DNA of 35,131 nucleotides from Planctomycetota bacterium (GTDB taxonomy: Bacteria; Planctomycetota; Phycisphaerae; UBA1845; Fen-1342): NCBI GenBank assembly GCA_022574815.1, contig JACZRH010000008.1, positions 1 through 35,131 of the forward strand, given 5' to 3'. The translations under genes and the position numbers were made by a program. Positions 1,412 to 10,997 of the stretch are shown here, in pieces. Below the pieces are notes generated by a model. The model worked only from the letters and a program-made list of their open reading frames with translations. It did not search any database and had not been told where the DNA came from. Each line of letters opens with the position of its first letter. Position 1 is the stretch's first letter.

Positions 1412-3121
1412 TCACGACCGCTCGGAAACCCCTCCCACACTCACTTGCACCAAGCGCTGCTGCACTTTGCGGGCTTCATCGTCATCCACAGCAATCTCGC
1501 TATGGCACGCGAGCTTCTCCTTGCTCGCCCGAGCCGCCAAGAGCTCCTGCTGCTCCTCGCTCAACCCCGGCGACTGCACCGCAACTTTCTCCGGCTGGAA
1601 GCCCTCGTGTTTGCCGCTGGCCCACTCCGGAATGTCCTTGCTGATCCGCACGCTGCACCAGTCGTGCCCGCACATCGCGCAGAAGTCGGTGTCGACCTCC
1701 AGGTCCTCGTCGTGCAACGCCCGAGCCGTCTCGCCGTCGAAGGCCAGCTCGAAGTGCAGCGGCCAGTTCAACGCCGCCCGCGCCTTGCTCAAATCGTCGT
1801 CCCACTGCCGCGCGCCCGGCACGCCGCGGGCGATATCGCCGGCATGGGCCGCGATCTTGTACGCAATGCAGCCGGCCTTGACGTCCTCGGCCTTCGGCAA
1901 ACCCACATGCTCCTTCGGCGTGACATAGCACAGCATCGCCGCCCCGGCCCGCGCCGCTTCGGTCGCGCCGATCGCCGACGTGATATGGTCGTAACCGGGG
2001 AATACATCGGTCACCAACGGGCCGAGCACGTAGAACGGGGCGTCGTCGCAAACCGTCCGCTCGGTCTCCATGTTGAACGCCACCTCGTTGAGTGGAATGT
2101 GCCCCGGCCCCTCGATCATGACCTGCACGCCCATCTCACGGGCACGCTGCATCAGCTCGGCCTGCACGTGCAGCTCGGCGAGCTGCGCGGGGTCGCTCGC
2201 GTCGGCCAGACACCCCGGCCGCACGCCGTCGCCGAGCGAATACGTCACGTCGTACTCGCGCATGATGGCGCTGATCTCGTCGAATACTTCGTAGAACGGA
2301 TTCTGTTTGTTGTGGTGCAACATCCACTTGGCCATCAGACTGCCGCCGCGGCTGACCAGCCCCATAACGCGGTTCTTGACCAGATGCAGATTCTCCTTAA
2401 GCACGCCGGCGTGGATCGTGAAATAGTCAACGCCCTGCTTGGCCTGCTGCTCGACGGTCTTGAGAATGTCGTCGTAAGTCAGATCCTGGAGATTACGGCC
2501 GATGATCATGCTGTAGACGGGCACCGTTCCGATCGGCACGACGCTGTTATCGATGATTCTCTGCCGGCACTCGTCCAGCTCGCCCCCGGTCGAGAGATCC
2601 ATGACGGTGTCCGCGCCATAAAGAATCGCGTACCGCAGCTTCACGAGCTCTTCGTCGGTATTGCTGGTGACCGGCGACGCACCTTGGTTGGCGTTGATTT
2701 TGGTCGTAATCGGCCGCCCGATCCCGCAGGGATCCAGCCGCTTGGGCGCATGCGCCCCGCGGCAATACTCCGGATCGTCCAGCCATTTCCGCCGCTGCGT
2801 CACGGTCTGGTTCACCCAAAGCCCGCCGCCGGCGGTAAAGGTCGGATGCCCGAGCGGTTCGGACGAATAGCGAGTAGCGATTCCAGAATGACGAGTCGAA
2901 GAATCGGCCCCGTTGCCGTTTCCCTTGATCCCTCGATCCCTCGATCCCTCGATCCCTTCCTTGCCCCCACTCCCCGCAAGGTGCCTCACATTCGCCGGTA
3001 TCACAATCCGCCCGGCGGCGACATGATCCCGAATAAACTCTGGTGTCACATTCTCCCGAACGGCGACCCGCGCCATCTCGGCCGTAATCACGCCTTGGCG
3101 TGCTGCTTCAAGCCGTGTCAT
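1412..3121 (-). CDS. thiC: Phosphomethylpyrimidine synthase ThiC, with an internal insertion
   Basis: Radical-SAM enzyme converting aminoimidazole ribotide to HMP phosphate, the pyrimidine half of thiamine. The core is typical: [47 protein letters not shown] and [10 protein letters not shown]. The C-terminal cluster motif CX2CX4C lies at Cys481, 484 and 489. AAGGAG sits 8 bases before the ATG and lies inside the end of the upstream HEPN gene, whose stop overlaps this start by 14 bases, so the two are probably translationally coupled. Residues 51 to about 133 are unusual. In the short-form ThiC sequences I recall, the segment ending in IPAN is followed almost directly by the IGR...KINAN segment. 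Here about 80 residues intervene, partly encoded by an 8-base tandem repeat. The core is intact, so the enzyme is probably active. No clear terminator follows. Confidence 0.96.
2925..2956. repeat. Four tandem 8-base units (TCGATCCC) inside thiC
   Basis: One TTGATCCC is followed by three TCGATCCC units without interruption. On the coding strand this reads as a GGGATCGA-type octamer. Because 8 is not a multiple of 3, each unit is read in a different frame, giving the Gly/Ile/Glu/Ser/Arg-rich stretch near ThiC residues 55-66. Just downstream in the gene, at 2863-2900, is another low-complexity piece (GAATAGCGAGTAGCGATTC and neighbours). Both look like non-coding simple repeats read through in frame. 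Confidence 0.85.
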
Positions 3122-3134
3122 CTGTATCTCCTTC
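3004..3134. repeat. Direct repeat, copy 1: thiC ribosome site and first 40 codons
   Basis: This segment starts at the CAATCCGCCC string inside thiC and runs through the start codon to the AAGGAGA ribosome site. It is repeated at 3771-3901 in the same orientation. My hand alignment of the coding part finds about 18 differences over about 115 bases, roughly 84% identity. The repeats bracket the MNT-HEPN pair. Confidence 0.85.
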
Positions 3135-3470
3135 GCTCTGTGCGGCGATGATTCTCAAGACCTCTTCATGCAAACTGGGAACGTCGATCGTCGCGGCGTT
3201 CCAGACGATGTGCCAATCGATGCCGAAGTACTTATGCACGGCGATGTTCCGGAAAGCAACGATATCCTGCCAGGGGAGGGTGGAATGCTGCTGCTTCAGG
3301 GCATCACTGATGCGCGCTGCCGCTTCACCTATGACGGTCAGCTTTTGCAAAACGGCGCTGCGAACCATGTCGTTGCCGACGAAGCCTGCTTCGTCAGCCC
3401 CGGAAATGAAGCCCGTTACAGCCTCGGCGGCCTCGACAATGTCGGCCAGATACAGGTCGTCACGCCGCAA
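3108..3470 (-). CDS. hepT: HEPN-family (HepT, DUF86-like) RNase toxin
   Basis: Small all-helical HEPN protein of about 120 residues. The family active motif RX4HXY is present as RNIAVHKY. In known HEPN-MNT modules this protein is an RNase toxin, silenced when its MNT partner adenylylates the motif's tyrosine. I place the start at TTG 3470 ([13 protein letters not shown]) because GGAGGT lies 4 bases before it and family members begin at this point. The longer frame up to 3554 encodes residues that read as a shadow of the mnt gene. It overlaps mntA by 11 bases. Its last eight codons (EGDTDDTA) are made of the thiC ribosome site and start region, so the stop codon is supplied by the target gene. 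It overlaps thiC by 14 bases. Confidence 0.85.
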
Positions 3471-3756
3471 AGACCACCTCCGCTTCGGCCAGCACGCGGT
3501 CACGGATGCGTGCGTTGAGGCCTCGCTTGGTGGCGACATCGACGCGCCGGCCAAAGAGAACCTCCAGATCGCGGGTCAGCCGCGAAAGCGCGATAAAACC
3601 AATCCGGGCCGAGGGCTCGAACTGTACCAGCACGTCAATGTCACTATCCGGGCCCGCGTCGCCGCGCGCCGCAGAGCCGAACACGGCCAGCTCGCAAACG
3701 TGGTGCCGCCGACAGACATCGGCGAGTTGCTCGGCTTCGACCGTTAAACCCATCAT
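3460..3756 (-). CDS. mntA: MNT-family nucleotidyltransferase antitoxin
   Basis: Minimal nucleotidyltransferase of 98 residues. The polymerase-beta-like signature GSX10DXD is complete (FGSAARGDAGPDSDIDVLV), and the third acidic residue is probably in the VDV of the late strand. By family precedent it transfers AMP to the HEPN partner encoded next. GGAGG lies 5 bases before the tandem ATG ATG, so I start at 3756 and not at the longer 3792. The start overlaps the stop of the thiC remnant as ATGA, so translation may be coupled to that broken frame. The order antitoxin then toxin and the 11-base overlap with hepT fit this module type. Confidence 0.88.
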   Translation of the reverse strand: MMGLTVEAEQLADVCRRHHVCELAVFGSAARGDAGPDSDIDVLVQFEPSARIGFIALSRLTRDLEVLFGRRVDVATKRGLNARIRDRVLAEAEVVFAA

Positions 3757-3887
3757 CGCGACCCTCCTTTCAATCCGCCCCGCGCGACACAATCGCGGAT
3801 AAACGCCGGCGTTGCGTTCTCCCGAACGGCGACCCGCGCCATCTCGGCCGTCATCACGCCCTTGCGGGCTGCTTCAAGCTGTGTCAT
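3753..3887 (-). pseudogene. Remnant thiC 5' end (44 codons)
   Basis: The frame begins [20 protein letters not shown] and matches the intact ThiC at 29 of the first 35 residues. It keeps its own AAAGGAG ribosome site. A small deletion near codon 35 changes the frame, and it then ends at a TGA inside the ATGATG of mntA. It lies 24 bases after the stop of the other HEPN gene. The remnant and the intact start are the two ends of a direct repeat around the MNT-HEPN cassette. Either the cassette duplicated its target, or it brought a replacement thiC 5' end with it. Confidence 0.85.
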
Positions 3888-3911: not shown

Positions 3912-4367
3912 TTACTTACTCTTGGGTCTCGATTGCCGGCGCTTCCGTGCCTCGCTCTTCGCCTTCGGCTTGCTGCTTGATGTGGCCGACATGCCGAGGT
4001 GTTCACGCAGTGTTTCTCGAACAACCTCACATGCTTGAAAGGCGATCTTCGCCATTGCCTTGTCCGCGCTGCTGCCCGGGTAACGAAAACGCACTGCGTA
4101 GTCCGACAGTGTCGTTGCGGCCTGTCGCAGCGCCTCCCAGAACGCGTTGATCGCCCGCAATAGATCCAGCAAAGCGGGCAAGTCGTGCGTTCGCTCGAAC
4201 TGTATTCCGGCCTCGATCGGCGTCGCCTTCATAAACTTCTCCGCACACTGCTGGGAGTGAAAACACGCCGAATCGTAGTTCGGTTGCTTCCTGGCCCGCA
4301 ATTCGCGCCCGGCGGAGGCGAGATCACCTTCGGCCTTTTGGATCCATTCTCGCGTTAGAGGTTTCAT
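3912..4367 (-). CDS. HEPN-domain protein paired with a nuclease-MNT fusion
   Basis: A 151-residue protein of the second HEPN type (PF05168-like). It opens MKPLTREWIQKAEGDLASA and has the core ACFHSQQCAEKFMKA, a THDLPALL segment and FRYPGSS. It lacks the RX4HXY motif of the neighbouring HepT, so RNase activity cannot be assumed. The last 25 residues are a Ser/Lys/Arg tail (KPKAKSEARKRRQSRPKSK) that would bind nucleic acid and is unusual for a HEPN protein. Its start overlaps the stop of the upstream fusion gene as ATGA. This is a typical toxin-antitoxin arrangement, but with a much larger partner. Confidence 0.8.
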   Translation of the reverse strand: MKPLTREWIQKAEGDLASAGRELRARKQPNYDSACFHSQQCAEKFMKATPIEAGIQFERTHDLPALLDLLRAINAFWEALRQAATTLSDYAVRFRYPGSSADKAMAKIAFQACEVVRETLREHLGMSATSSSKPKAKSEARKRRQSRPKSK

Positions 4368-5557
4368 GCCACGCCCTTTCGTGGATACAGAGTTTTTCCC
4401 TTGTCGAGAATCTCTCGTATGAATGGATCGCCCATCATCATGCGACGCTCCACCTCACCCGCCGAGCGGGTCAGCAGGTCCAGAGGAAAGTCGGGATTCA
4501 GGCTTTTGAGAATATCGAGGGAACGATCCGCGGCGTTGCCGTCACCGGCAAGAATGACGAGAAGATCCACATCCGAGCCGGACTCCGGACATCCGTACGC
4601 GTAAGACCCAAAGCGCACGATTCGCTTTGGCGCGAACCGCTCGACAATAGCCTGTGCAAAACGGTCGATCTTGGACGACAGGTCGAATTCGGCTTCCGTC
4701 ACCCGCTCGGCCTCTTGGAGACCTCGGCCGGCGAACACCCGTTCAATCTTCCCCAAGCTGTCATTGAACCGGTACCTCGCGTCGTACTCACCATCGAGAA
4801 CGTACGTAGGCAACGGTTTGCGGGCAAGGGGGTTGTCAAAGACCCTAAGCTTCAACGCCTCCCCGAGCGTCGGGCGAAGTTCCCGATATAGGTCGATCCT
4901 TATTCCCAGACTTTCTTCAACCGGAAGGTTACCTGTACCATCAGACTTGCGTAGTATGACGCGACTCTCATACTCCTGCTCGAACTCGGGATTCGGGATC
5001 GTGATGGCACCCAGAACAGCGATGGCGCTGATAGTCTTATTCCGAGCCAACCGCCGATTGGGTGTGACCATTTTGCCTCCATCGAGAAACGCGGAATGAG
5101 CATCCTCCATCAGAAGTTCACCGCGGTCCGGATCGAACGGCACTTGCATCCCCGCGTCTCCCAGCATCGCGCCGAACACGACGTAGGGCCAGTCACGAAA
5201 CTCCCAGTCATCGACGTTGTAGAGCACGAGAACGCAACAGTAATCCTTGAATTCGCGAAACTTCTCCCGCGCTTTTTCGATTGCTTTCCGAATATGCCCG
5301 AATGGATCGAAGTTGGCAGCGCGCGACCTTTCTGGGCGCCGTGCGTGCAGTTCCTTTACTTCGACAATCAACTCGCGATCGCCCCAACGAACGTGATAGT
5401 CCGGTTTGCGCCTCTTCCCAGGAACAGTCGGCTCGTAATCATAGCTAGCATCGTTCGCTCGGAGATACCTCTCAAAGAGCAATTCTGATACGGGTCTGTT
5501 CGTAGTGCGCCCTACGTGACTTCGCTTCTTGGATGTTGCCTTGCGAGCCATCGTCAT
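4364..5557 (-). CDS. PD-(D/E)XK nuclease-like domain fused to MNT nucleotidyltransferase
   Basis: A 397-residue, two-part protein. Residues 20-140 look like a restriction-type nuclease: a helix with Glu25 and Glu29, then KPDYHVRWGDRELIVEVKEL, which supplies Asp53, Glu66 and Lys68 of the PD-(D/E)XK core. Residues 140-290 have no motif that I recognise. Residues 300-395 are an MNT nucleotidyltransferase, with GSX10DXD complete (Gly317-Ser318, Asp329, Asp331) and a possible third Asp at 360. The second ATG (codon 3) has the better spacing from AGGTG and may be the true start. The stop overlaps the start of the HEPN gene by four bases. MNT-HEPN pairs are known toxin-antitoxin modules. The nuclease fusion is the novelty and may add a DNA-cleaving effector. 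Domain calls rest on motifs only. Confidence 0.75.
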   Translation of the reverse strand: MTMARKATSKKRSHVGRTTNRPVSELLFERYLRANDASYDYEPTVPGKRRKPDYHVRWGDRELIVEVKELHARRPERSRAANFDPFGHIRKAIEKAREKFREFKDYCCVLVLYNVDDWEFRDWPYVVFGAMLGDAGMQVPFDPDRGELLMEDAHSAFLDGGKMVTPNRRLARNKTISAIAVLGAITIPNPEFEQEYESRVILRKSDGTGNLPVEESLGIRIDLYRELRPTLGEALKLRVFDNPLARKPLPTYVLDGEYDARYRFNDSLGKIERVFAGRGLQEAERVTEAEFDLSSKIDRFAQAIVERFAPKRIVRFGSYAYGCPESGSDVDLLVILAGDGNAADRSLDILKSLNPDFPLDLLTRSAGEVERRMMMGDPFIREILDKGKTLYPRKGVA

Positions 5558-6262: not shown

Positions 6263-6294
6263 CGCTCTTCTCTGCGCCTCTGTGGTTCCTCCTC
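6263..6294. repeat. Related repeat (CAGAGGCGCAGAG) before the DUF6265-like gene
   Basis: On the minus strand this reads GAGGAACCACAGAGGCGCAG followed by AGAAGAGCG, the same style of purine-rich repeat as at 6067-6094. A third, weaker piece (CCGCTGAGCCGCTGAGACGG) lies near 6168-6187. The 169-base gap between the two genes (6124-6292) is largely made of such pieces. No promoter is evident in it. Confidence 0.5.
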
Positions 6295-6793
6295 ATGTTT
6301 CGCGACTCGCATAGAGCCGCTTCAGAAGTTGAATCTGCCCGGCGTGATACACGTCGTGCAGCGCGATGCCGTAGAGCAGCCGCCGGATGTCGATCTTCGC
6401 GCCTTTCGTGACGCGCATAAGATCACGATCGCTCAACTCGGCCGCAACTTCGCGCAGTCCCTTGTGGGCGTCGTCCGCAATCTTCACATACGTTTTCCAC
6501 GTCGCGACGCTAAGCGGCTCTTCCAGCGTGAGCCAGTTGCTACCCTTGAGCGGAAACGAACCGCGCTTTTCGCCGGTCAGCCGCCGCCGGGCTGCGTACT
6601 TCCAATACGCGGCGTGAACGGTGTTGTCGGCGATGGACTTGCGACCCGGCCCCGGCCGCCAGCAGGCCTGCTCCGCATCGACGCGGCGAATCGCCCCCCG
6701 CATGTTCGGCCCGTGCCAAGCGCTCTTGTTGAAACCCTCGTCCAAGATGCGCAACAGCAGCACAACTTGGGCGTTACTCGTTTTCTTCACCAT
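6293..6793 (-). CDS. DinB-fold protein, single domain
   Basis: A 166-residue four-helix-bundle protein of the DinB/YfiT superfamily, whose members use a three-His metal site; many are thiol transferases or have no known role. Visible marks are FNKSAWHGPNMRGAI near the start, a middle helix with HAAYWKYAARRRL, and ALHDVYHAGQIQLLKRL near the end, giving candidate ligands in each. The frame stays open to an ATG at 6832, overlapping the upstream gene by 20 bases. I favour the ATG at 6793 because GAGGTG lies before it and family members start close to the first helix. It is the third gene after the riboswitch on the same strand. Confidence 0.75.
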   Translation of the reverse strand: MVKKTSNAQVVLLLRILDEGFNKSAWHGPNMRGAIRRVDAEQACWRPGPGRKSIADNTVHAAYWKYAARRRLTGEKRGSFPLKGSNWLTLEEPLSVATWKTYVKIADDAHKGLREVAAELSDRDLMRVTKGAKIDIRRLLYGIALHDVYHAGQIQLLKRLYASRET

Positions 6794-6812
6794 CAGGTCG
6801 GTTCTCACCTCT

Positions 6813-7871
6813 TCATCTCTGCGTTGTGTCATACCAATCGAGGTAGTCGATCTCCTGCGTCTCGACTGCGAGATGCCGCAGCATGTTGCGGCACTGCGCG
6901 CGGTGGTGCGTGCCGTGAGGAGGGAGCTGGAGCATGGTCTCGCCCAGCCGGAAGCGGAGCAACAAATCCGGCGTCACTTCTGCGGAAATGACCTCCTGCA
7001 ATTTCGCCGCCGTCAGCGTGGCAAAGAACCCGTCGCGCGCTGCGATGTGCGTCTCCAGCAGCACCTTCAATTCCGCGATCGAAGTCGTCGGCGGAAGCTG
7101 CTGGTACGCCTTGTTCTCAGCGTCCGTCCAATTCGCACACCACCACGCCTCGGCGTCGTAGATGTGCAGCAGCGTCTTGCGGAGCGTGCCGATACCCATC
7201 TCGAATGCCCGATCGAGCCGTTCGTCGGTCAGCTTTTCGGCATGGTCGCACAGGAGCAACGTCGCCCAGTCGCTGTAGCGGTAGTATTCGCGAATCGTTT
7301 CCACATCCAGCTCGTCGGGCGCCGCGAGCGTGGCGCCCGGCGCCATGCCCATTTCGCCCAGCTTCGCACGTCCGGCCTCATCAAATTCGACCGTCGGGCG
7401 CTCGACGCGCAAATGCAGAAAATCGATCCCGGGCACTTTCACCCCCAGCCGCCGAAGCATGTTCAGCGCTTGCGCTCGATGGTGGACGCCATGATTGCTC
7501 ACGTGCAGGACCATGTCGCCGAGCGGAAACGTGTGCGTCTCGCCGCTGTCTGCTGTGAAACTGATCTTGTTGGAGAAACCCGGCTCGCCGACGCTGTCGA
7601 AGAGGGCGTCCCGCTCGACGGCCGTCTTGCGAAAGCGGTCCCAGAGCACGTCCATCGCGAGGTTCGGCTCGGTTCCGAGCCCCGCCATGCCGCGCCATCG
7701 GTTCAACCAATGTTGTTCACACGCCCACATGTGCTGCACCGTCCGCCGTAGCGAGCCCGGCCCCATCTCGAACGGCCGATCGAGTTGCTCGTCGCTCATC
7801 GGCGACGCAAGCTCCATCACCTTGTCACGTGCCCAGTCGTTGTGTGCGAACAGTGTGCGCAAGACGCTCAC
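6813..7871 (-). CDS. Tandem DinB-domain protein
   Basis: A 352-residue protein made of two DinB domains. The first (residues 1-165) has LFAHNDWARDKVMELA, FEMGPGSLRRTVQHMWACE and NHGVHHRAQALNMLR. The second (about 190-350) repeats the same plan with YYRYSDWATLLL, FEMGIGTLRKTLLHIYDAE and PHGTHHRAQCRNMLR. Each domain keeps a full set of metal-binding His candidates, including the HHRAQ pair. The start is GTG with GGGAG 7 bases upstream. It is the first full-length gene after the TPP riboswitch, and its start overlaps the stop of a possible 20-codon leader as GTGA. A close paralog with the same duplication lies at 9924-10997. The substrate is unknown. Confidence 0.85.
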   Translation of the reverse strand: MSVLRTLFAHNDWARDKVMELASPMSDEQLDRPFEMGPGSLRRTVQHMWACEQHWLNRWRGMAGLGTEPNLAMDVLWDRFRKTAVERDALFDSVGEPGFSNKISFTADSGETHTFPLGDMVLHVSNHGVHHRAQALNMLRRLGVKVPGIDFLHLRVERPTVEFDEAGRAKLGEMGMAPGATLAAPDELDVETIREYYRYSDWATLLLCDHAEKLTDERLDRAFEMGIGTLRKTLLHIYDAEAWWCANWTDAENKAYQQLPPTTSIAELKVLLETHIAARDGFFATLTAAKLQEVISAEVTPDLLLRFRLGETMLQLPPHGTHHRAQCRNMLRHLAVETQEIDYLDWYDTTQR

Positions 7872-7930
7872 GGTGCTTCTCCCAATCCGGCTCGCTGCGG
7901 CGGGTGGTCAATCGGGCGGTTTGCCGACAT
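7868..7930 (-). CDS. Possible 20-codon leader ORF at the riboswitch edge
   Basis: An ATG at 7930 follows the riboswitch's closing strand directly and opens a 20-codon frame rich in Pro and charged residues. Its TGA overlaps the GTG start of the DinB gene as GTGA. The only ribosome-site-like string, AGGGA, belongs to the conserved 3' strand of the TPP aptamer (GTAGGGAAGCG), 8 bases before the ATG. If real, ligand binding would hide this site and coupling would pass the effect to the DinB gene. A frame this short could be chance. Confidence 0.35.
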   Translation of the reverse strand: MSANRPIDHPPQRAGLGEAP

Positions 7931-8077
7931 GAGTCGCTTCCCTACGCAGCCGAAAAACGCAGCACCGGTCACAACGCGTGCCACAGCTTCATCAGACGCT
8001 GATCAGGTTCAGAGGGTCCGCGAGCCGATCGCGCCCGCATCTCATGCCCGCCGCGGCGGACCACCCCTAGCAGTCCG
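7931..8077 (-). promoter_or_regulatory. TPP (thi-box) riboswitch with an enlarged 3' arm
   Basis: Read on the minus strand, the thi-box landmarks appear in order: CTAGGGGTGG (8070-8061), a GC-rich P3 hairpin, the TGAGA core (8044-8040), GGGACC-side ACCCTCTGAACCTGATC (8017-8001) and finally GCGTAGGGAAGCGACTC (7947-7931). This is strong agreement with the thiamine pyrophosphate aptamer. Between GATCAGC and GCTGCGTAGGGA, where a 10-12 base loop is normal, about 50 bases are found. They include a candidate extra hairpin GGCAC...GTGCT. No classic terminator follows; 60 bases separate the aptamer from the DinB start. It probably acts on translation. Such switches usually precede thiC directly, but here thiC is 4.8 kb downstream. 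Confidence 0.85.
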
Positions 8078-8140
8078 GTGCATTGTAGCTCGCAGTCGGC
8101 GGCACCGCCACCGCGCCAGCGACCCGCCGTCGAGCTATTT

Positions 8141-8674
8141 TCAATCGTAGAAGTACCCGGGGCAGGGCCCGTTGTGCGCTTCGAGCTCGCGGTGCTTTTT
8201 CCAGCCGAGCGCGGCCAGCCGCCAGAGCCAGGGCGGGCGGCGAAAGCGATAGCCGGTGCCCGACTCGCAGGCGACGACCGCGGCGGCGAGGCCGCTGTTG
8301 CTGTTCGGGCCCAGCAGGCGGTACGCCCCGCACGGCCCGTAGAAGTGCGGCAGGCGGTGTTTCAGAAACTCGCCCACGACACGCGGCGCCCGAATGAAAC
8401 GCGTGGCAAAGTACAAACGCCCGAACGGCGTGCGCACCGGCGGCCAGTCGCGGCCGTCCGGCGAGTCGCGGGGCTCATAGCGGGCGATACTCTGACGATA
8501 ACCCGATTGCGAGCCGTCGCCGGGAAGGCCGTAGTCCACGTGGCGCAGGAGAAACTCGGCCGAATCGTCGTCGGGGTCTTCGAACGTGTAGTCGATCGCG
8601 AGGTGCCCCCAGAGGCCGTAGACCGGCTGAAAGCGCCAGCGCCAAAAACACGCGTCCTCACGTTGCAGCGGCAT
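8141..8674 (-). CDS. Uncharacterised protein with a GPNSNS motif
   Basis: I cannot place this 177-residue protein with confidence. It is rich in Trp, Tyr and Arg. It contains a PVYGLWGHLAIDYTF segment, an acidic EDPDDDSAEF stretch, and near residue 120-135 YRLLGPNSNSGLAAAVV. A GPNSN turn followed by a hydrophobic helix resembles the conserved part of DUF3750-type proteins, but the match is too short to claim. There is no signal peptide or membrane segment. The start overlaps the end of the cupin gene by 17 bases, so the two are probably co-transcribed. It ends 64 bases before the TPP riboswitch, which therefore starts a separate unit. Confidence 0.6.
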   Translation of the reverse strand: MPLQREDACFWRWRFQPVYGLWGHLAIDYTFEDPDDDSAEFLLRHVDYGLPGDGSQSGYRQSIARYEPRDSPDGRDWPPVRTPFGRLYFATRFIRAPRVVGEFLKHRLPHFYGPCGAYRLLGPNSNSGLAAAVVACESGTGYRFRRPPWLWRLAALGWKKHRELEAHNGPCPGYFYD

Positions 8675-8975
8675 ACTGCTCGGATCCCATGAAGTGCCGC
8701 GACACGTACGGCTCGTCGCCGAAGACCCAACTGTCGTGGCCAGGCCCGATGTGAAAGAAGTCGCCGGGCGTCAGCTCATACTCGGTCCCGTCGTCCATCT
8801 GCACGATCGCACGGCCGGAGACGACCATGCCGACGTGCTCGGACCATTTCCAGCCCGGCTCGTAGCAGGCCCGGCCGATCGTCATCCCGCCCAGTGTCAC
8901 GATGTCAAACCGGCCTTTCTCGAACGTGCGCGTCTCGTCCGGCGATTCCAGTCGTTTGAGAGCAACTCCATTCAT
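8658..8975 (-). CDS. Small cupin-domain protein, apparently shortened
   Basis: A 105-residue single cupin. The barrel is recognisable from GGMTIGRACYEPGWKWSEHVG, VVSGRAIVQMDDGTEYELTP, GDFFHIGPGHDSWVFGDEP and a final FMGSEQYA. In the close relatives I recall, about 15 residues with a Cys and a second EHVG lie between the first SEHVG and the MVVSGR strand. Here one EHVG leads straight into MVVSGR, as if a deletion had occurred between two EHVG repeats. That region carries part of the first cupin metal motif, so metal binding may be impaired. No ribosome site stands out before the ATG. No substrate can be given. Confidence 0.75.
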   Translation of the reverse strand: MNGVALKRLESPDETRTFEKGRFDIVTLGGMTIGRACYEPGWKWSEHVGMVVSGRAIVQMDDGTEYELTPGDFFHIGPGHDSWVFGDEPYVSRHFMGSEQYAAAT

Positions 8976-9150
8976 GCTGCCTCCATTCGCGGCTGGTGCA
9001 AGGCGGGAGTTCGCAGTCCCTCACGGCGGCCTTGGCAGCCGACGCGGCATAATTCCAGCGCATCGTTAGGGGAGCTGGTGTCGGTCGCCGCGGACCCCAA
9101 GCCGGTCCGTGATCAAGAATAGCGTAATATCATAGAGCGCGCCGTCGCGT

Positions 9151-9879
9151 CTACGGCGTTCCGCCGCCGCCGCCCATGCTCGTCATGTCCATCACCTGCA
9201 CGCCTTCGGGTATCTCGAGCTCGAAGCGCTTCGGGTCGATTTTCGGGTTAATCTTGATGTCGCTCAGCGTCATCTTCTCGACCGATTGTCCGTCCTTGCT
9301 GAAGCCCTCGCGCTTGGCGTATATGCCGTCCTGCTTGCGGAAGTAGTGCATGTACTTGACCGGCCCCTGCGCCGCATCGGATTCCTTCAGGTCCGCGCGT
9401 ATGACCCAGCACTTCGCACCATCCACCTCCGCGTCGTCCACGAGCGTCAGATTGAACTTGGCGTGCATTTCCTCGAAGAGTTTCTTGCCTCCGAAGTCCA
9501 TGTTGTTCTTCCCGCTGGCGCGCGTCTTGGTGGCCATCTTCCGGCCCATCCGGTCGATCAGCGCCGTGACCGTCTCGCCGTCGCTGACCATCAGGATTTT
9601 CGTTTTCATCTCGCCCTGCCCGCCGGGCATCTTCATCGTGGCCGTCATGTCCATGCGCATCTTCGATTTCTCGCCATGCCGTACGACCTCGACGGCACCC
9701 TTCCGTTCTTCCGTCGCCATGGGGGAGATCGTGATCATGTTCATGTTGGCCGTGAACGACTTGACCGCGTCCCACTGCGCGATCAGCTTCTTTTCGACCT
9801 GCTCGACGGTTTCCAACGCCGGCTCGGCGGGGACCGCGAGCAGAATCGTGACGACGGCCATCCAAGTCCAATGAAGCAT
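9151..9879 (-). CDS. LolA-like exported protein
   Basis: A 242-residue protein with a signal peptide (WMAVVTILLAVPAEPA). The mature part resembles the LolA/LolB-like half-barrel of DUF4412- or sigma-E-sensor-type proteins: ALETVEQVEKKLIAQWDAVK, a Met-rich strand (FTANMNMITISPM), KSKMRMDMTATMKMP, then GDGETV-like and KRFELEIPEGVQVMDM segments. The C-terminus is a Gly-rich tail. Such proteins carry or sense lipids or lipoproteins in the periplasm, but the substrate here is unknown. GAGGAGG 5-10 bases before the ATG fixes the start; the much longer open frame upstream overlaps the DinB gene and is not coding. The unusual Met content (more than 15 in the first 130 residues) is notable. Confidence 0.75.
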   Translation of the reverse strand: MLHWTWMAVVTILLAVPAEPALETVEQVEKKLIAQWDAVKSFTANMNMITISPMATEERKGAVEVVRHGEKSKMRMDMTATMKMPGGQGEMKTKILMVSDGETVTALIDRMGRKMATKTRASGKNNMDFGGKKLFEEMHAKFNLTLVDDAEVDGAKCWVIRADLKESDAAQGPVKYMHYFRKQDGIYAKREGFSKDGQSVEKMTLSDIKINPKIDPKRFELEIPEGVQVMDMTSMGGGGGTP

Positions 9880-9923
9880 CGTGTCCTCCTCGAGCGGGCA
9901 AACGCGCGGCGGCCCGGCCCGCC

Positions 9924-10997
9924 CTACGCGGTTGCGTGACACCAGTCCAGGTAATCCAGCGGCGGCACCTCGACGCCGCTGTGTCGTAGCATATTGAGCA
10001 CCTGCGCGCGGTGATGCACGCCGTGCCCGCAAAGTTGCAGCATCGTCTCGCCGAGCCGGAAGATCAGTTCCGTGCCCGGCCGAACGGTGGCCGACACAAC
10101 GCGCTTCAATTCCTCGTTCACCAAGCCGTCCAGAAACGCGCTGCGTGTCTCGGCGGTCCGCCGGGAAGCATCGTTCAGGTCGGCGATGGAGGTCGTCTCG
10201 GGCAATTCGTCGAACGCCCGCTCCGGCCCGGACGTCCAGTTTTCGTACCACCACTGTTCGGCGTCGCGGATGTGCAGGAGTGTTTTGCGAATGCTGCCGG
10301 GCCCCATCTCGTAGGGTTGCTCGAGCTGCGGGTCGTTCAGACCCGCGGCCAACTGATGCACGCGGTCGCGGGCCCAGTCGCAGTAGCGAAAATACTCGCG
10401 AATCGTGCCTATGTCGCAGTCGACCGGCGGCAGCGGCGCCGCCCCGGGCTCAAATCCCATTTGGATGATTTTCTCACGGGTGACGATGTCGAACTCGACC
10501 GTCGGCTCCTCGATGGTCATGAACAAATAGTCCAGCCCCGGAGGTTTCGGGAACCCGACGTGTCGCAGCATGTTCAGCGCTTGGGCGCGATGATGAATCC
10601 CGTGATTGGTGACGTGCAGGAGCAGGTCGCCGAGCGGGGTCGCGTGCGCCCCGTCCGAACCCTCGTAGCGCACCCGCGTCGCCAGGTCACTCTCGGTCAC
10701 GCCGTCGAGGAACGTGTCGCGCGCCGCCGCGAGACGCCGAAAGGCGTCCCACAACGCCCCCGGCTCGGCGACGTCCCTGGAGCGCGGAAACTGCGGCAGC
10801 TCGTGGCCGTGCCACTTTTCGAACCAGTAGCGCTCCGCCCCGTAGAGATGGCGCAGCGTTTTCCGCAAGCTGCCGGGCCCCATCTCAAACGGCCTGTCAA
10901 GCTGCTCGCTCGACAGCGACGACGCCAGCAGCATGAGCTTGTCCCGGGCCCAGTCGTTGTGAGCGAAGAGGGCCCGTAGCGTGTGTCTGGGCTCCAT
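9924..10997 (-). CDS. Tandem DinB-domain protein, paralog
   Basis: A 357-residue protein with two DinB domains in the same layout as the gene at 6813-7871. Matching segments include LFAHNDWARDKLMLLASSLS, FEMGPGSLRKTLRHLYGAER and NHGIHHRAQALNMLRHVG in domain 1, and YFRYCDWARDRV, YEMGPGSIRKTLLHIRDAE and GHGVHHRAQVLNMLRH in domain 2. Both domains keep the HHRAQ pair and an upstream His. The two proteins are clearly close paralogs and imply a domain duplication before the gene duplication. AGGT lies 8 bases before the ATG. The LolA-like gene follows after 44 bases. Metal-dependent thiol transfer is a family possibility, not shown here. Confidence 0.85.
   Translation of the reverse strand: MEPRHTLRALFAHNDWARDKLMLLASSLSSEQLDRPFEMGPGSLRKTLRHLYGAERYWFEKWHGHELPQFPRSRDVAEPGALWDAFRRLAAARDTFLDGVTESDLATRVRYEGSDGAHATPLGDLLLHVTNHGIHHRAQALNMLRHVGFPKPPGLDYLFMTIEEPTVEFDIVTREKIIQMGFEPGAAPLPPVDCDIGTIREYFRYCDWARDRVHQLAAGLNDPQLEQPYEMGPGSIRKTLLHIRDAEQWWYENWTSGPERAFDELPETTSIADLNDASRRTAETRSAFLDGLVNEELKRVVSATVRPGTELIFRLGETMLQLCGHGVHHRAQVLNMLRHSGVEVPPLDYLDWCHATA

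Follow-up and report, generated by a model that had tools for sequence, protein, structure and literature searches.

The window, as we call the whole 35,131-nucleotide stretch of DNA that was analysed, carries a fusion gene that encodes a predicted PD-(D/E)XK-like nuclease domain joined to a C-terminal MNT nucleotidyltransferase domain, followed by a gene for a HEPN protein (Table 1). The two open reading frames, 4364-5557 and 3912-4367, share the four nucleotides 4364-4367, where the 3′ end of the fusion gene overlaps the ATG of the HEPN gene. Both the overlap and the MNT-then-HEPN order agree with the initial annotation of this DNA, which had also placed Asp53, Glu66, Lys68, Asp329 and Asp331 in a 397-residue protein, and all five residues lie as described. 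The C-terminal nucleotidyltransferase had been called complete, and this is confirmed by a Pfam match to PF01909 (E 9.6e-8) and the presence of G317, S318, D329 and D331 of the GSX10DXD motif. In structure comparison the MNT model matches 2rff and the MNT antitoxins 8xeh and 7bxo, and it also matches aminoglycoside nucleotidyltransferases and HI0073. Solo relatives of this MNT are about 110 residues long compared with 397 for the fusion, and the MNT here is thus not a minimal single-domain protein.

Table 1. Features of the fusion module and the adjoining Class I pair, with coordinates in the window
Feature	Position	Strand	Details
Class I HEPN (HepT-like)	3108..3554	-	PF01934 E 2.5e-22; 34.9 bits with the HepT model, under its cut-off of 60; ORF from an early TTG
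Class I MNT (MntA-like)	3460..3792	-	PF01909 E 2.8e-15; 44.2 bits with the MntA model, under its cut-off of 60
Duplicated 5′ end of thiC	3784..3887	-	104 nt at 86%; borders the Class I pair on its upstream side; second copy at 3018-3121
Partner HEPN, Class II / HEPN-T	3912..4367	-	151 aa; PF05168 E 8.4e-23
Fusion gene	4364..5557	-	397 aa, ATG start; N-terminal PD-(D/E)XK-like nuclease domain and C-terminal MNT; five homologous fusions
MNT domain, residues 294-395	4373..4678	-	GSX10DXD (G317, S318, D329, D331) and D360; PF01909; pLDDT 93-98
Remaining N-terminal domain, residues 116-290	4688..5212	-	Motifs GAMLGD, N-TTISAIAVL, ENP-A--PLP and G-(F/Y)DERY from alignments; pLDDT mostly <50
Predicted nuclease core, residues 20-115	5213..5500	-	Helix 23-34 with E25, strands, D53, E66/K68, helix 87-103, strand 107-114; AlphaFold2 and VIA-align

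A second MNT-HEPN pair, of Class I, lies at 3108-3792 and is separate from the fusion module. It is flanked by a direct repeat of the start of thiC (3018-3121 and 3784-3887), and the similarity extends into the thiC ribosome-binding site. The Class I pair thus looks as if a cassette of about 766 bp had been inserted before thiC, duplicating part of that gene. Class II MNT-HEPN genes, fused or solo, are found upstream of thiC in six genomes (the window, 1412-3121, and L016, L160, L026, L038 and L039), either directly or with further MNT-HEPN pairs in between, and this proximity could reflect a housekeeping or functional link or a hot spot. In genome G406 three consecutive pairs precede thiC (L160, 4146-8463): the fusion with its HEPN, a solo Class II pair and a Class I pair. 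The window also contains tandem DinB-like genes within 6293-10997 (6293-6832, 6813-7871 and 9924-10997), and a DinB-like gene is present upstream of the fusion in G429 as well.

Predicted fold of the N-terminal domain

No family in Pfam, NCBIfam or PADLOC matches residues 1-291 of the fusion or covers the nuclease-like domain elsewhere. AlphaFold2 modelled the fusion with pLDDT values of 93-98 in the MNT domain, 69-80 over residues 21-70 and 53-62 over residues 71-110. At this moderate pLDDT the N-terminal part is predicted to contain elements in the order αβββαβ (helix 23-34, strands 38-41, 54-58 and 61-71, helix 87-103, strand 107-114), which is the helix-strand-strand-strand-helix-strand order of the PD-(D/E)XK core (PMC1913061). 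Its best structural matches in VIA-align were the archaeal Hjc Holliday-junction resolvases (2wiw, Z 7.2; 1gef, Z 7.1), and bunyavirus cap-snatching endonucleases were placed on the same part with a Z of about 7; VIA-align values below 8 are suggestive only, and a Z of about 7 can reflect merely a shared arrangement. The PD-(D/E)XK-like core that had been proposed from the sequence is supported with moderate confidence. Foldseek matched HJC (4tkd, probability 0.94) and SfsA (4dav, probability 0.80).

The spacing of D53, E66 and K68 in the fusion equals that of D33, E46 and K48 in Hjc (Hjc residues from PMC1913061). Our alignment shows E25, D53, E66 and K68 to be kept in all six known fusions, together with GSX10DXD and D360. 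Motifs I-III of the PD-(D/E)XK type are conserved across the domain family, with the exception of one distant solo member (L014) that has E at position 68. The family is much longer than a PD-(D/E)XK core, and its second half is also conserved (GAMLGD, TTISAIAVL, ENP-A--PLP). Family matches were weak, namely SfsA in one relative (E 0.07), Cas4 in PADLOC (0.05) and Bax1 in register (E 0.6), and a domain profile searched against the PDB returned Bax1 (E 0.6) and unrelated chains alone. A model of the domain by itself, built with two sequences, reached a mean pLDDT of 38.5 and was set aside. We conclude that the N-terminal domain is probably a PD-(D/E)XK-like nuclease.

Occurrence of the fusion and of the solo domain

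Using a profile of the N-terminal domain we identified the same fusion in five further planctomycete genomes (G416, G429, G413 and G410, L009-L012; G406, L013), with 38-49% identity to the window protein. A search for the fusion next to HEPN genes, as the initial annotation had suggested, thus gives six genomes, with an adjoining, overlapping HEPN gene in five (the window, L010, L011, L012 and L013); at L009 the contig ends before the HEPN, and the HEPN of L011 is apparently frameshifted. An assembly or gene-prediction artefact was rejected, since six genomes carry the same fusion. The fusion is a real, conserved but rare arrangement in a few planctomycetes: within the order the domain occurs in 10 of 114 genomes, six of them with the fusion, and within the class in 17 of 397. 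A scan of genome contigs gave at least one full fusion (L051, which seems to belong to genome G429), together with solo MNTs, among the matches listed. Outside the class, Pseudomonadota yielded one weak partial match in 299 genomes and Cyanobacteria none in 292. On plasmids there were ordinary MNTs and a single solo domain, from Streptomyces, with no obvious defence genes nearby, and no relatives were found in viral contigs (five queries) or phage records.

Solo MNTs of the same subfamily, of about 110 residues, precede Class II HEPNs across many phyla, and an overlapping or adjacent HEPN is present at 54 of 75 related loci. In a tree of 106 MNT domains, which includes five full-length fused proteins (the row L040_2574 being the G406 fusion), the fused MNTs group in a single clade (support 100/95) that lies within the solo Class II MNTs. 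This is most simply read as one fusion event, and that reading rests on the MNT tree because the tree of nuclease domains is poorly resolved.

The nuclease-like domain also occurs as a solo protein. It follows an MNT (MNT2) with a truncated HEPN in L155, where the domain itself is frameshifted; a lone MNT in L159, where its start is frameshifted; an MNT-HepT pair and a VapB-like/PIN pair in L153, where one stop codon interrupts the PIN gene; and a PemK/MazF-like toxin in L020. In L014 it faces a PIN gene. Two copies lie among restriction genes, one inside a type I restriction-modification operon (L156, 582-6046; HsdM-IrrE-DUF4411-domain-HsdS) and one in a type II neighbourhood, after a C5-methylase, an EcoRII-C endonuclease and Vsr (L178, 1-3424). 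In L150, L151 and L154 it stands on either side of a PF05635-type four-helix protein (Pfam-checked in L151), and the solo domains of L006/L158, L008, L152 and L179 have no clear defence neighbour. Most, though not all, solo copies are therefore found among conflict genes, which speaks for a role in conflict and for an enzyme able to work without the MNT. In L180 (1418-3257) a Class I MNT-HepT pair is immediately preceded, in the same orientation, by a different nuclease-like gene (324 aa, no Pfam match), which was left out of the family counts.

The HEPN partner, proposed role and known systems

The module is of Class II, with a PF05168 HEPN beside a PF01909 MNT, GSX10DXD in the MNT, and a Tyr but no RX4H in the HEPN. 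In this class the MNT keeps GSX10DXD and the HEPN lacks RX4HXY but has a Tyr; RNase activity has never been demonstrated for a Class II HEPN (Yao et al. 2020, PMC7641770). Here the RX4HXY motif is absent from the partner HEPN, and H61, R95 and Y96 are present instead. Among 34 HEPN homologues D15, Q40, E43 and H61 are invariant, and R95 and Y96 are each found in 32. For HEPN-T an alternative His and the motif Arg were proposed as the active site (PMC3710099), and these correspond here to H61 and R95. In a Legionella pneumophila HEPN the RNase activity is carried by the Mg-binding residues Q44 and E47 and not by R98 and H103 (PMC11586414). We infer that Q40-X2-E43 of the partner HEPN has the same spacing and lies in the corresponding helix, and the protein may be active.

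The initial annotation had reasoned that, with RX4HXY missing, the nuclease and not the HEPN might be the effector. The motif is indeed missing, but all Class II HEPNs lack it, so its absence does not argue for the nuclease, and H61/R95 and Q40-X2-E43 offer alternatives. Modification of the HEPN by the MNT, which had been taken as established, holds for Class I; its demonstration is limited to that class, whereas the partner here is of Class II. The broader proposal, a toxin-antitoxin (TA) or defence module combining a nuclease with an MNT-HEPN pair, lost this effector argument but is sustained by the domains, the conservation in six genomes and the TA and restriction neighbours of the solo copies.

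We favour, with a probability of roughly 45%, a two-gene conflict module (TA or defence) in which the MNT of a Class II pair gained an N-terminal PD-(D/E)XK nuclease domain once, and in which the MNT-HEPN complex would restrain that domain until its release. The computed basis is the architecture, the conserved catalytic-type residues, the gene order in five of six genomes, the single clade of fused MNTs and the neighbours of the solo domains. While the cell is at rest, the MNT domain would bind the HEPN and probably AMPylate it, with Tyr96 as the candidate site, and the complex would keep the attached nuclease inactive. If stress or invasion upset the complex, the nuclease would be set free to cut DNA; the HEPN would serve as the switch and perhaps also as a second, RNA-directed effector. 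The nuclease, the HEPN or both may be effectors, and we lean towards the nuclease as a DNA-directed one, since every fusion retains its catalytic-type residues and the domain also occurs without MNT and HEPN. Against the favoured module stand the moderate confidence of the nuclease model (pLDDT 53-80), the lack of a Pfam match, the several solo copies with a frameshift or without defence genes beside them, and the position of the Class II pair next to thiC. As a speculative and rather doubtful extension, the module might belong to a TA or defence type whose MNT-HEPN complex uses AMP transfer to control a DNA nuclease carried on the 'antitoxin', with DNA and RNA attacked under one switch.

It is possible, if on balance unlikely, that this is an ordinary Class II TA pair, with the HEPN as RNase toxin, the MNT as AMP-transferring antitoxin and the nuclease domain as an accessory, for example a DNA anchor or a second-line part. 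The gene order and overlap are those of other MNT-HEPN pairs, as at the 54 of 75 related loci, and the HEPN retains H61/R95 and Q40-X2-E43. A mere anchor would, however, have no need of the four nuclease-type residues that are invariant in the fusions; the RNase activity of Class II HEPNs is putative, and the Q-X2-E correspondence is one of spacing and helix, not of a solved structure. An improbable role outside TA systems would be a two-subunit nucleotidyltransferase, comparable to HI0073/HI0074 or kanamycin nucleotidyltransferase, in which the HEPN is the substrate-binding subunit and the nuclease is regulatory or acts in repair. The matches of the MNT model to aminoglycoside enzymes and HI0073 as well as to antitoxins, the HEPN without RX4H, and the conserved position of the Class II pair beside thiC in six of the order's genomes fit such an enzyme, but the solo nuclease domains accompany TA and restriction genes and the distribution is patchy (17 of the class's 397 genomes).

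Quite improbable, in our view, is defence against foreign DNA in which the nuclease itself recognises or cuts invading DNA, and the MNT-HEPN pair serves as a back-up that would arrest the cell when cutting does not succeed. Homologous domains do occur in the type I restriction operon and beside the C5-methylase, EcoRII-C and Vsr genes, whereas the module in the window has no methylase or sensor; the lack of relatives in phages and viral contigs is neutral for this explanation. Because the MNT chain bears an additional predicted enzyme, the fusion opens a direct route to the function of the widespread Class II MNT-HEPN modules, and catalytic mutants in the three sites would reveal the harmful part and the target of the MNT. 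It further delimits a nuclease-like domain, not covered by any Pfam family, that is found repeatedly among TA and restriction genes.

Among known systems, Class II HEPN/MNT (PF05168/PF01909; PMC7641770; HEPN-T of PMC3710099) shares with our module the HEPN family, the lack of RX4HXY, the conserved Tyr, GSX10DXD and an MNT gene upstream of and overlapping the HEPN gene, and the fused MNTs nest among Class II MNTs; the difference is the extra N-terminal nuclease-like domain of about 290 residues. Type VII HepT/MntA (Class I) has the same two-gene order, MNT fold and motif, but its HEPN is of PF01934/PF08780 with RX4HXY, whereas here it is of PF05168 without RX4HXY and the MNT is not single-domain. 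Assignment to Class I type VII was rejected on that HEPN and on an MNT score of 19.6 bits against the NCBIfam MntA cut-off of 60, and Hailong HalB on 12.6 bits against a cut-off of 190. Archaeal Hjc has no sequence match here, and the nuclease-like domain is bacterial, joined to an MNT and has about 170 further conserved residues.

The nearest precedents date from 2013, when Table 1 of PMC3710099 listed archaeal HEPN-T (Parep1/8) operons that include 'proteins with MNT and REase (DUF1626)', as well as fusions of HEPN-M to an Hjc-like REase. These share with our module the presence of REase, MNT and HEPN in one neighbourhood. The fusion has no DUF1626 (PF07788) match, and we found no description of a nuclease-MNT fusion in the open-licence papers searched, in keeping with the initial annotation, which had called the module a candidate undescribed one. 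The cases in PMC3710099 have an archaeal Parep HEPN with a DUF1626 REase, or the REase on the HEPN; for the former the paper does not say clearly whether MNT and REase form one protein. The parts are known, as are REase/MNT/HEPN neighbourhoods since 2013; judging from the open-licence papers, the fusion described here appears to be new.
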